From Rugalucina vietnamica (taxonomy: Eukaryota; Mollusca; Bivalvia; Lucinida; Lucinidae), in the NCBI GenBank assembly GCA_964017185.1, contig OZ024870.1, positions 29,163,621 through 29,227,620 on the forward strand: a stretch of 64,000 bases of DNA, read 5' to 3'. The position numbers and the translations under genes are program-made. Below, one piece after another: positions 32,025-63,626 of this stretch; position 1 is the stretch's first letter, and each line of letters opens with the position of its first letter. The notes beneath the pieces are model-generated. The model saw only the letters and a program-made list of their open reading frames with translations. It was not told the origin of the DNA and did not search any database.

Positions 32025-32730
32025 TAACTTGATGTAAGTATATGCGTAAGGTGTTTGTAGTAAACGTTTTTTCTACCATATTTTAGAAAATATAAAGTGT
32101 ATCCCAGAACCGTTCAGCGAGATGGTCAAATGACATTCTGCAATGTTAAAACGTGCTTTAATTTTATTATATAGGTGTTTAAACTATTAAAAGATGGCTG
32201 CGCACACGACATGTATGCTCTTGATTGCGAGTGTAGCAGCACGTGTACGATGATGATTGTTTGCGTATAAGTACATTGACTATATCCTGTATATCAATCG
32301 TCAGTATCTTTAAGATGTCTTACATAAATTATCTAACGCTGATAAAAACATACTAAAGTGGCGATGTACCACAGTTTATTAATTTTATCAGATAGTGTGG
32401 TATGTTCAATGTTTTGTTTGTTTATTAGTATTTGTTTGTTTATTTCTTTCATTAAAAGCAGATTTAAAAAAAAAAAACAAACAAAAAAACATCGTGTAAT
32501 CTTGAAAACAAGAATCAAATGTAAGGTACGCTTTAAAATGAGCCGTGTTTATAAGCATGAAACTAATACAAGGCGTACACTACAAAGGCAACCTGGAAAA
32601 AAAGTACAACAAATTAAAACTTTGTAGATCCGAAATGGCATCCATAACGTGTGCCTGGTTATGAAAGTCATCGTGTTATTTGTCACATTGATATTATCCT
32701 ATTTTGCACTGATTTTCTTCAGACGACAGC

Positions 32731-33200
32731 ATGATGCCACATTCGACCCCAACAGCAATATGTGTCTGCACAATTCTTCTGCTGATAGTTTACTCAGAGC
32801 AGGCAACTCAAAGTGGTTCGTGCCCGAGTCCTTGCCGATGTCTGTTCTTCGAGGGTCTTTGGTCCGTTTATTGCAACAGGACGGGAATAAGTACCATACC
32901 AACTAACATACCTCGCTCGACACAACTACTTGACCTGGCTGGGAACAACATACAATCATTGCAGAAAACAGACGTGGCGTACCTTTCCAAACTTCAAAAT
33001 CTGGATATCAGCGAAAATTATCTAACTGACGAAAGTATAGCGGCAGGTGCCTTGGAGTTGCCCTATTTGACCACTGTTGATGTATCGGAGAATAAGTTTA
33101 GTAGGATCCCGAATGTGCTGCCTCGAAACTTGACGACGCTTTATTTTCTGTATAATAATATCGGAACACTTAAAGCCGACAGCTTCGTACATTATCCTTC
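32731..33200 (+). CDS. LRR gene, 5' coding part
   Basis: Starts at ATG 32731 (the second of two Met codons would serve equally well) and gives the signal peptide, N-cap and first four LRRs. It breaks within the codon after HYP at the transposon border. Confidence 0.85.
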
Positions 33201-34009
33201 TAGTCCTGTGGCCATCTGGGCTATTTGAGGTGGACCTGGATTTAAAGTACATAGAAAATGTTTTTACATATTTGGAAAGGTGAGGTCTTCTACATTAAGA
33301 ATCCGGCGGGTGACATCTTGTCACCATTGAGCAATTTGAGAAATTCAAGATGGCGTCCAAGATGGCTGCCCATATACAGAAAATGCTATTTTCCTGTGAA
33401 ATAATCATGTTTTGACAGACTTTTAGACCTGAAATCACTTGTATTTAAAAGCTGAATTAATTGTACATTCAAATAAGTGCAACAAAATATACACTGTAAA
33501 GGTGAGATCCAAGATGGCTGCCAAAACTAAGGAAAAACGCAATACTTGAAAGAGGTTCCTTCGAAAATGACCAAACAACTTGGTAGCAATTTTGTTAATG
33601 TTAATGGATCCAGTGGATGGCATCTTGTCACCATTGAGCAAATTAAGAAATTCAAGATGGCATTCAAGATGGCTGCCCGTATATGGCAAAAGTAGTTACC
33701 AGGCAAATATTCATGTTTTGGCATATTTAACACCTGACATCATGATCAGTGCAATTAATACCATGTTAAGAGTGCATCTAATATGACCACCACAGTAAAG
33801 GAAAATTTTGCAGTTTTTGCTTTGTTTGTTTGTTTTGTTGATTTACGCCCAAGTCAGCCGATATTGCAATGTCCGGATATTACCTCCATTTTATGCGATT
33901 TTTATCCAACATTAGGATGCCATATCAACCGAAACATAAGTAAACTACAACCAAAAAAATTGAACAGCTCATGCTTATAAATATAAATGTTCTTAGAGGA
34001 TCTCAGTTT

Positions 34010-34490
34010 TATTTTTATTAGTCTAAACCACTTCGGGCAGGTTCAGACCAGTAATCAAAAGGCTGGTCAGTTAGTTTTATCTGGAAACACAAGCAGCCCA
34101 TATTGCTATCAGAACCTAAAATAACGGGGACTATTTCCTTTTATGCTGCATGCGTAATGCTACAAAAGGGTGATCAAGAGGGAATGTGAGCCCCGCCCAT
34201 TGGAGTCAAGAGAAATATATTAGCTGCTTTTGTCTCCAGGCAAAGTTATAAAAAATCTACTGAATGACCATCTGATAAATGGGTTACAGCACAGAAGGCC
34301 ATAGCCTGCCCAAGCAAAGAGGTTAAAGTAAAACGAGCCTTAGCTGTTAACTCAGGTGGTTATATTTTCAAGCACATATTGAGAGTCATGTCATCCTAAA
34401 GTTTGGTAGAAGTCCGGACATGACCATAGCTGTTCAGTTGACTGGGACATAAAGCACCAGCACAAGCAAACAAACAAACAAGTAATGTGG
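34010..34490. repeat. dispersed repeat of unknown class inside the FB element
   Basis: GAGCCCCGCCCATTGGAG, CCAGGCAAAGTTA, GTGGTTATATTTTCAAGCAC and AGTCCGGACATGACC parallel 38330-38590, and partly 25655-25905 and 55120-55680. Confidence 0.45.
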
Positions 34491-35289
34491 TCACTTTCAG
34501 ATAGTATAAAAGTCAAAGTTCTGTTGACAAATCACTGATAAATACAGGGATATGTAGTTCACAGCGACCTAGACTAAAAATGATTCATGGGGTTTAATAT
34601 CTCATTATCTATAGGCTCACATACATGTATCTTTTCTCATATACATGTATGTATCTTTTATTCTGGAAGACAGACAGCAAAGTCTGAAAATGTAGATCCA
34701 AGTGACATATGATTATGATTTTTAGGGGGCGGGCTGTAACTAATATTGTCAGAAATTGGAGCCCAATCCCTCGTCTTCGGGATAACAATAAAATATGTTT
34801 TAACTATGATCACTGTAAAAGCATGAACTCCTATTGATTGACAGTCATTAGCTGATAACTGATATGGAACATGATACTAGAAAACCTGGTGGCCAGACAA
34901 TGGCTCTGAATACAGGTTGGGTTCCAAAATGAAAACTCAATATTAATTGCGGAGGGGGACAGTTGTACTGTGCAGGTAATAAGGGACCAAAAAATAAACA
35001 TTGGTATCACCTGCATTATCCTTTAGGAGTCTCTTTATTATTCCATAAAGTGATGGGAAAATACCTTAGTATGGCAGTCCATTGATCATTTGCGCATATT
35101 GCACAAGTGAGGTCATAAATTGAATAAACAAATTGAATAAACATTGGCACCAATATACATGTGTGTAGCACATTCAGAAGAATATACACCATATCTCTTT
35201 TAATTGTAGAACAGTGGGTTCTATTGATAAACCATCTATATGCACACTTTTATGTATCCTTTGTCTAGAAAATATGCATGTTCAACTAA

Positions 35290-36110
35290 ATGGTATACAC
35301 ACGCTTGAGACCAAGCTGAAAGTCTACAAGGCTGCGATGCTGCCAACCCTCTTGTATGCATGTGTGACCTAGTCAGTATACCAACGTCATGCAAAGAGAC
35401 TTCACCATTTCCATTTAAGCTGTTAGAGAAAGCTGTTAATATCAAGTGGCAAGACAAGATTCCAGACATAGAGGTCCTGAAGAAAGCAGGGACGCAAAAC
35501 ATGTAAACAGTCTTAAAGCTAGCACAGCTTTAATGGACTGGCATTCTTATAAGAATGCCTGATCATTCTTATAAGAATGCCTGATACGCGACTTCCAAAG
35601 AAAGTTTTCTATGAAGAACTAGAGGAAATCGCTCTTAAGGTGGCCCAAAGAAACGCTAGAACCTCTCTGAAGGATTTCGAAATACAAATGGGTTCTTGGG
35701 AACAGATTGCACAGGCGAGGTCTCATCAACGAAGAAGCAGCTGTTGGCACCTTATGTGTGTTTTCATAGTTTTAGTTAAGTTAAGGTAACTGAGTGGCCA
35801 CCTATTGGGAAAATAGCTGCTCATTCGGCTTACGATATGTTTCATGGTATAAGTACCTGATTGCTGGTGTGTGTTTTTTTCCCCACCTCGGTTTTTGGAG
35901 TGGGGGTCTTTTTCTGATTGCGCCTTTTCCTGATCTTTGCTTACTTGTACCATTCTACGAAAAAACTCTGAAGCTGAAAGAAAGCGCAGAGAAAGCAAAG
36001 CCAAGACCAATAGGTCATCAGCAGGTTCCATGATACTGACTTGCTCTACTTGCAACAGACAGTTTAGAGCTAGAATTGGCCTAGTCAGCCATCAAGAAAT
36101 AATGATGGTC
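35290..36110 (+). pseudogene. non-LTR retrotransposon 3' end, decayed
   Basis: Translation in shifting frames gives TLETKLKVYKAAMLPTLLYA, then MPDTRLPKKVFYEELEE, ARTSLKDFEIQMGSWEQIAQ and, after a gap, EAERKRRESKAK and ILTCSTCNRQFRARIGLVSHQ. From memory this is the C-terminal part of LINE reverse transcriptases, with a terminal C2H2-like finger. Stops (for example after LLYAC) and a duplicated ATTCTTATAAGAATGCCTGAT at about 35543-35583 show it is dead. The frame is interrupted at about 35757-35940 by another repeat. Confidence 0.75.
35757..35940 (+). repeat. dispersed repeat inserted in the LINE remnant
   Basis: GTTTTAGTTAAGTT, CCTATTGGGAAAATAGCTGC, TCGGCTTACGAT, AAGTACCTGATTG and TTTCTGATTGCGCC recur in inverted orientation at 46480-46670. 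The class is unknown; SINE-like size. Confidence 0.65.
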
Positions 36111-37162
36111 TTTCTCATTAGTGAGAGACGAACAACCATAGGCTGAATGGACTGAAACATAAAAGAGTGAGGGTCAAACACTGGGTCTTAGTATGTCATA
36201 CTCCAAAGTCATCATGACAAAAAATCATCGAGTTGACCTTCTCTTCATGACAATAATCTACCTCTTCATGACAATAATCTACAAACAAAGCTTGAGAGAA
36301 AAGTTGCCAAATATGTTCTTTAAAAGTTGTTCTAGTGTAAGACCTTCTTGGCCAAAAGTGTACATTTTTAATGATAAGGCCTAATAAAGAGTATCATTGG
36401 TTCAAGTACATGTACCTTCAGAAGAGTGATTCTTTGACTGATGTTAACAAATTTTACCACCTTACAGTTGTTTGGTTTGAGAAATTCTTTAGTTTCAATA
36501 CCAGCGCTTTTCAATATTGCATTTTCCTTTATTCTGGCTGCCATTTTCGATGATCTCCATACTTTGTGAATTTTTGAAATAGTTTCAATGTACACAGACT
36601 TCAGCCTTTAAATGTGAGTAATTTCAGGTCTTAAAAACCCGATTATTTACATGGCAATTACTGTTCTCTATATACGGGCAACCATCCTGAATGCCATCTT
36701 GAATTTCTCAAAGTGTTCAATGGTGATAAGATGACATCCATTGGAGTCTTAAATGTTTTAATCAAAAGTGCCACCAAACTGTTTGGTTTAAGAAATTCAT
36801 TAGTCTTGAAATCACCTCTTTTCAATAATGTAATTTTCCTTAATTCTGGCGGCCATCTTGGATGCTCTCCATACATTGTCTGTTTTATTGCACTAATTTC
36901 TATGTACCATTGATTCTGCTTTCAAATACAAGTGATCTCATATTCAAAAGTCTCTCAAAATATGATTATTCCCATGTCAACTGCTGTTTTCCTTATACGG
37001 GCAGCCATCTTGGACGCCATCTTGAATATCTCAAAATGCTCAATGATGACAAGATGTCACCCGCCGGATCCTTAATGTAGAAGACCTCACCTTTCCAAAT
37101 ATGTAAAAACATTTTCTATGTACTCCAAATCCAGGTCCACTGAAGGTTCTGCCGGACTATTC

Positions 37163-37925
37163 TCTGAATTATATTGATGTCTCTTACTGTGGCTTGCGAC
37201 TGATTGAGAATCACACCTTTGACAGTGTTGGCGAACTCAGTGTCCTATATGCTCCATTTAATAAGTTGACAGACGACAGTTTCCCGCCAAATATTTTGAT
37301 GAAAAATACAAAGGTAACTATACTCAGTTTGAGATTTAACCAACTGGAGCATTTACTACGAGACCTACCGTCTTCTTTGCTACATCTAGATTACGTTGGT
37401 AATAATATCAAGACAATACCGAAATTCGCATTCCGGTCCTTGCCAAATTTGCAGACGATAGAACTATGGAACGGACGGATAACCACAATTGACGCATTCT
37501 ATGGACTTCCGAATCTTTCAATTCTAGATATAAACACTGACAAAGTGTCATCCGCTATTACGAACAATACTTTTAATGGACTAACAGGCTTGCAAACTTT
37601 GTATTTCTACGAAAATCAAATCAGCAAAATCGAACCAATGGCGTTCTCCTCCTTTCGGAATATCACCTCCATTTGGCTAAGCTCAAATAATCTGACGTCA
37701 CTTGTACCGGAAGTGCTTGACATGAGATTCATTCCACATCTTTCTGAGCTATTTATAGACTTTAACCCATGGAACTGTGACTGTCATCTAAGATGGCTGA
37801 GAGAGAAAGTGGACAATGCTTCCTACGTTATTCAAGACCCACATTTGATAACTTGTGCATCACCAAAAGCGGTTGCTGGCAAAGCATGGGATATACTGAA
37901 GCCAAGTGACTTTATATGTGCTTAA
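37163..37925 (+). CDS. LRR gene, 3' coding part
   Basis: Resumes in the frame of the 5' part with SLNYIDVSYCGLRLIENHTF and runs through the remaining LRRs and the C-cap to TAA at 37923-37925. The only ATG-free stretch is its start, as expected for the second half of a split exon. Confidence 0.85.
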
Positions 37926-37965: not shown

Positions 37966-38198
37966 TGAGTCACTGCATAAGAAAAGCAGCAAAATGCTTG
38001 GGCGAAAACAAAGGCGCAGATCAGCTTCGCGATAATCGCGAAGCTGATCAGCGCCTTTGTTTTCGCTACACGGATAGTACAGTTCCTCTTCTTCCTAAAT
38101 CCGAAATTTCAAGCTTTTAGCCTGCTTTTGTGACTGTACAGGCTGGTTTGTGTCGGACGTGGTCGGAACCAAATTGTTGGTTTCCCTTGCGATGGCTA
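37966..38198. mobile_element. MITE family P2
   Basis: CGAAAACAAAGGCGCAGATC, CAGCTTCGCGATAATCGCG and AAGCTGATCAGCGCC at the centre; the right end is TTGTTGGTTTCCCTTGCGATGGCT. The left end is decayed. It starts about 40 bp after the LRR stop codon. Confidence 0.8.
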
Positions 38199-38584
38199 AA
38201 TTACTATTTTTAATGTTCTCAGTTGGACAGTTCTGACCTCAAAACAAAGAATGAAATACAGCTAGACATACGAAGCCTTGTGTCAGTTTAGATATTCGTA
38301 CGCTGTTCTATTGCAAAAGTAAAGGGGTTAATGTAAGACGAAATATGGGCTCCGCGCGTTGGAGCCGTGAGAAATAGATGGGCTGCTCGTGCTTCCAGAC
38401 AAAGCTTACATCTGTTTATTGGTTGACAGATTAGAAGGTCTGAGTCTGCCAAGGAAAATTGGTTCAAGTCATACCAACCATATTTGTACATGTATACCAG
38501 CCACAAATGTTTGATTCTGGTTATATTTTCAAACAGATTTGAGTGTCATGGCATCCAAATATTGGGATGAACTCCCATAAAATG

Positions 38585-38818
38585 AGCCGCCTCGTGGGAA
38601 AACCAACAATGTGGTTTCCGAACAGGTCCAACACAAACCGGCCTGTACAGCTACAGAAGCAGGCTAGAAGCTTGAAATTTTGGAGTTAAGTAGAGGAGGA
38701 ATTGTACTATTCGAGTAGCGAAAACAAAGGCGCTGATCAGCTTCGCGGTCACCGCGAAGCTGATCTGCGCCTTTGTTTTCGCCAGTGCAGATTGTTGCTT
38801 TTCCCATGAGGCGGCTCA
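38585..38818. mobile_element. MITE family P2, full copy
   Basis: GAGCCGCCTCGTGGGAAAACC and CTTTTCCCATGAGGCGGCTC, with the centre CAGCTTCGCGGTCACCGCG and AAGCTG. AAAT flanks both ends. Confidence 0.92.

Positions 38819-42154: not shown

Positions 42155-63626
<21,472 letters not shown>

Follow-up and report, generated by a model that had tools for sequence, protein, structure and literature searches.

The stretch of DNA analysed here, 64,000 nucleotides of the bivalve Rugalucina vietnamica (contig OZ024870.1 of assembly GCA_964017185.1, positions 29,163,621 to 29,227,620; hereafter the window), carries a gene for a leucine-rich repeat (LRR) protein whose coding region is interrupted by an element of 3,959 bp. 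Very probably, this element is a non-autonomous terminal-inverted-repeat (TIR) DNA transposon that duplicated its target, TTC, on inserting in a coding exon of an LRR gene present as a single copy, the result being a disrupted gene and a probably young null allele, either segregating or recently fixed. A transposase from elsewhere presumably moved the element by cut-and-paste. The features that define the locus, in window coordinates, are as follows.

32721 to 32722, plus strand: possible splice acceptor TTTTCTTCAG directly before the ATG, proposed from the sequence
32731 to 33200, plus strand: 5' part of the host LRR coding sequence (hydrophobic leader, CPSPCRC cap recognised by eye, first LRRs), found once in the genome
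33198 to 33200, no strand: left copy of the target-site duplication TTC, recognised from the sequence and from other copies
33201 to 37159, plus strand: inserted non-autonomous DNA transposon, TAGTCC...GGACTA, with termini common to copies in unrelated flanks and matched genome-wide
37160 to 37162, no strand: right copy of the TTC duplication, recognised in the same way
37163 to 37925, plus strand: 3' part of the host LRR coding sequence (the rest of the LRRs, a C-terminal cap recognised by eye, the TAA stop), with a single full match in the genome

An LRR gene split by an exactly delimited insertion

The inserted interval begins with TAGTCC and ends with GGACTA, its full end sequences being TAGTCCTGTGGCC on the left and GGTTCTGCCGGACTA on the right. 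When it is removed together with one TTC, the two host parts form a single frame of 410 codons, from the ATG at 32731 to the TAA at 37923-37925, with no stop within, reading ...SFVHYPSLNYIDVSYCGL... at the junction. In this zero-shift join, LRR cores fall at residues 134, 158 and 182, so that the 24-residue spacing is kept on both sides of the junction. A reading of the sequence alone had already stated that the join restores a normal LRR and shows no other lesion. Thirteen trial joins were made (-6 to +6 bases): the frame runs through to the natural stop in the five whose shift is a multiple of three, and in the remaining eight a stop appears within about ten codons of the junction.

The joined protein has 11 recognisable LRR cores spaced 21-26 residues apart and a CDC-type C-terminal cap, the leader and terminal caps that would mark it as secreted being recognised by eye alone. 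Pfam LRR_8 scores above its cut-off in both host halves, with the repeats in register, and the solved structures that best match the 3' half are those of LRRC15, LRIG1 and TLR13. Because the ATG is immediately preceded by the acceptor-like TTTTCTTCAG, the coding region may be a single exon behind an intron in the 5' untranslated region. The host is a single-copy gene: besides the one full match of its 3' part, the best of 108 other matches is 32% identical (149 of 364 candidates scored), and no tandem paralogues are found in the window or in the 10 kb that flank it on each side.

A dispersed family with the same ends

The element belongs to a dispersed transposon family. With the first 360 bases of the element as query, we searched the genome from which the window comes (1.09 Gb, 47 contigs); of the 1,076 first-look candidates, 40 were scored, and each of these, the window copy included, matches from element base 1. 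Twenty further copies were fetched, 19 of which have the right end (L024 does not and was left uncounted), and their borders were set by alignment. An exact 3-bp duplication is present in 17/19 of these, with unrelated flanks and 16 different triplets. The other two are L023, whose flanking triplets ATT and ATA differ at one base of three, and L027, which has lost its last three element bases but whose next three bases (AAC) equal its left flank. Identity to the window copy over aligned bases is 95.8-97.1% in the 19 copies.

Genome-wide, the left-end pattern has 118 matches (at most 2 mismatches; control 0) and the right-end pattern 91 (exact; control 1), and the 91 right ends together with 100 listed left ends form 78 same-strand pairs within 30 kb, 0.8-18 kb long. 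Since the termini are shared by dispersed copies, the borders of the element are fixed independently of the LRR frame. Taken alone, a match of three bases at a single site is weak, with a chance of about 2% at this base composition; the TTC duplication becomes strong evidence because 17/19 other copies show exact 3-bp duplications in unrelated flanks. The earlier placing of an exact 3-bp duplication at the borders of 33201-37159 was thus right to the base, and the transposon insertion in an LRR coding exon that it proposed is supported by ends and duplications across the family. The window insertion alone lies within a long open frame (353 amino acids in the tested span, against 32-109 at 18 others, with L024 and L027 left out of the comparison).

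Structure of the element

The internal organisation of the element is given below.

33230 to 33556, plus strand: left long inverted arm, 83% complementary over 327 nt, with gapped similarity further inward to about 33740
36814 to 37140, minus strand: right long inverted arm, pairing with the left arm
33347 to 33690, plus strand: left-side subterminal repeats of type CAAGATGGCTGCC (repeat families D1-D3, inverted pairs I1-I4), with inverted counterparts at about 36634-37075
35290 to 36110, plus strand: remnant resembling a long interspersed nuclear element (LINE), the 3' end of a coding region by eye, with stops and frame changes
35716 to 35953, no strand: extra insert of about 238 bp in the window copy, similar to window 46494-46676
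36428 to 36429, no strand: point at which roughly 500-550 bp of most aligned copies are missing from the window copy

Units of CAAGATGG are repeated close to both ends. Open stretches related to the LINE-like remnant occur in several other copies, and the remnant is therefore part of the family core; a Pfam search with two short peptides from it gave no match. The short repeat of about 200-240 bp seen at 35716-35953 and 46494-46676 also lies, inverted, inside copies L035 and L039. Rfam gave no match on the whole window.

No stop-to-stop frame of at least 200 amino acids, and no transposase, was seen in 20 copies, the window's included, a count made without the 10.2-, 11.2- and 18.3-kb copies. 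The longest such frame, 190 amino acids, is in L035, which carries a large extra insert, and the 8.4-kb copy, 6.4 kb of which was read, consists of family core and other sequence with no stop-to-stop frame of at least 120 amino acids. In the absence of any frame above 190 amino acids in the 20 copies, the family is therefore non-autonomous as far as seen. With inverted terminal repeats, dispersed duplications of fixed length and no transposase of its own seen, the element has the hallmarks of a TIR DNA transposon.

Effect on the host gene

Translation from the host ATG would run into the element and end at an in-frame TGA (33226 to 33228, plus strand) after 165 codons, the last 8 of them element-encoded, with loss of 8/11 recognised LRR cores and of the C-terminal cap. 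Judged from these frames, the insertion would disrupt the LRR gene on this haplotype.

The sequence-only reading had allowed that the element might be spliced out as an intron. The gene would then still work, possibly with some additional residues in one LRR, and both host halves are indeed still open, a state somewhat unexpected if the insertion is old. We scanned donors in 33060-33319 and acceptors in 36850-37259 using generic site frequency tables (not fitted to the host species) and obtained 16 in-frame pairs. Some lie near the borders, for instance donor 33203 with acceptor 37134, giving HYPSSPLKVLPDYSLNYID, and this acceptor ranks in the top 12% of the window's AG sites. However, donor 33203 is in the weakest 13% of GT sites; the two others of the three donors closest to the border, 33187 and 33208, belong to the weaker 34% and pair with an acceptor of middling strength; and the highest-scoring of the 16 pairs would take out 100 host coding bases. 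No in-frame pair combines good signals at both sites with removal of the element, and we regard this splicing option as highly unlikely on sequence grounds.

Ancestral state of the insertion site

The transposon could instead be a later colonist of an intron, or of a coding insertion, that was already present in the ancestral gene. The earlier reading had itself named a conserved intron or ancestral extra residues as the outcomes that would speak against an insertion, and we looked for both in paralogues from the same genome. In both of the paralogues read, the matched region is covered by a single long open frame (513 and 463 amino acids). L044, the better of them (26% identity overall), aligns ungapped over a stretch that takes in 16 residues ahead of the junction and 36 beyond it; in the alignment of L045 (27%), a gap of one residue lies some ten residues ahead of the junction, which itself is ungapped. 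It therefore seems, from the ungapped best paralogue, that the disruption is derived and that there was no ancestral intron: as far as two paralogues can say, and with the caution that repeats of this kind may be aligned out of register, the ancestral gene would have had no intron and no additional residues at the junction. We found no point in favour of an ancestral intron, while the frame break coincides exactly with the element borders and duplication and family copies with the same ends sit at unrelated sites, which leaves this explanation barely credible.

Nor is there much to be said for an assembly artefact in which misjoined reads put the element in the LRR exon; numerous similar copies can mislead assembly, but a misjoin is not expected to yield a matching 3-bp duplication, an element complete at both ends and a host frame that continues unbroken on either side, and each host half occurs once in the genome, so that we give it a next to negligible chance.

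Age of the insertion and recent activity of the family

Two family copies, L028 (C17:16886928-16892319, plus strand) and L029 (C17:16794514-16799905, minus strand), are 5,392 bp long and identical. The two are oppositely oriented and separated by 87,023 bp; their duplications differ (AAT and TAA), and their flanks have 74 and 88 of 300 bases alike, about the level of random sequence. Unless there is an assembly error, this pair is the product of very recent transposition.

The window copy differs from the family majority by 1.7% (62 differences in 3,663 bases, 54 of them private), with at most about 12 small indels. Dating the window insertion by its private changes was rejected, as this distance is not a clock: L028 and L029, identical to each other, each carry 2.0% from the family majority. 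A "fresh" insertion is thus plausible but unproven. There is no second lesion in the 410 codons, and the insertion is therefore probably young.

Some points weigh against the explanation favoured here. If all 54 private changes and the indels postdate the insertion, the 1,230 coding bases, if unconstrained, would be expected to have gained about 0.7 stops and 2-3 frameshifts, and only a few percent of such genes would be expected to keep an intact frame; none of these lesions is seen, and selection could still be acting on the LRR gene in some way. The one assembly shows no empty allele, each host half being found at one place, with no second haplotype seen. No autonomous partner was found either: the EnSpm Transposase_21 profile (PF02992) has 15 matches in the genome, 0 of them inside any of the 78 end-to-end intervals (compared by eye), although autonomous copies could have diverged ends. 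As for the intact frame, it is most simply explained if the insertion is younger than the private changes, as the L028/L029 pair shows to be possible.

It is a further step to suppose that the family still moves in present-day populations and that the insertion is a segregating null allele, that is, a presence/absence polymorphism, of a single-copy recognition-type LRR gene. We consider this possible, if on balance somewhat doubtful.

Superfamily of the element

The window element is a non-autonomous DNA transposon, for which EnSpm/CACTA, Academ, Zator and PIF/Harbinger are the candidate superfamilies. Like known non-autonomous TIR transposons with 3-bp duplications, it has inverted ends, many copies, subterminal repeats and no transposase seen. 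Target-site duplications of 3 bp are made by EnSpm and Academ elements. EnSpm/CACTA is defined by CACTA/CACTG-like termini, whereas the element here ends TAGTCC...GGACTA. Classical PIF/Harbinger elements prefer the target triplet TWA; in contrast, 16 different triplets occur in the 17 exact duplications found here. The Zator target-site duplication is given as 3 bp in a section of PMC10045372, and in this duplication length alone does Zator agree with our element, no search for a Zator transposase having been made. Academ is reported, in part of PMC10294476, as amplified in bivalves.

A second element of the same type lies at 58605-62139 in the window. It has more diverged ends (TAGCCGGCAC and GTGCCGGACTA) with TTA on both sides, subterminal CAAGATGG repeats and inverted arms up to 94% complementary. 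Its right end, TAGTCCGGCA, matches the right end of the element at 33201-37159 over 10 bases. By the Repbase superfamily rule, as worded in a portion of PMC4455052 (equal duplication length and 11 terminal bases, one mismatch permitted), the right ends would put both elements in one superfamily.

Nine of the Transposase_21 matches (for example C4:15163307-15163744) cover a common stretch of the profile and score equally or almost so (E 3.8e-11 or 8.1e-11), and 6/9 are inside open frames of 901 amino acids. None is within a paired copy of the element studied. These matches suggest a recently active EnSpm-type family.

Neighbouring features and significance

Just 3' of the LRR gene, the region 38004-38783 is bounded by inverted copies of GCGAAAACAAAGGCGC-type sequence (by eye) and is probably another fold-back element or one resembling miniature inverted-repeat transposable elements. 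Further on, an open frame at 42728-43108 encodes a kringle domain (Pfam PF00051, E 3.7e-14).

Exons are commonly hit by transposons, and the event described here is ordinary in kind; it is, however, documented to the base. In a literature search, a negative of little force, no paper among the matches listed deals with this element or locus. The case is unusually clean, with exact borders and duplication, a host frame intact on both sides, a single-copy host and evidence of very recent movement of the family. Gene presence/absence variation has been described in the mussel pan-genome (PMC7653742), in the main text of which "LRR" and "leucine-rich" have 0 occurrences; the present locus, if segregating, would be a concrete null allele made by a transposon. 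As a simple two-allele marker, it could serve to show whether gene presence/absence variation in a large animal genome is produced by transposons.
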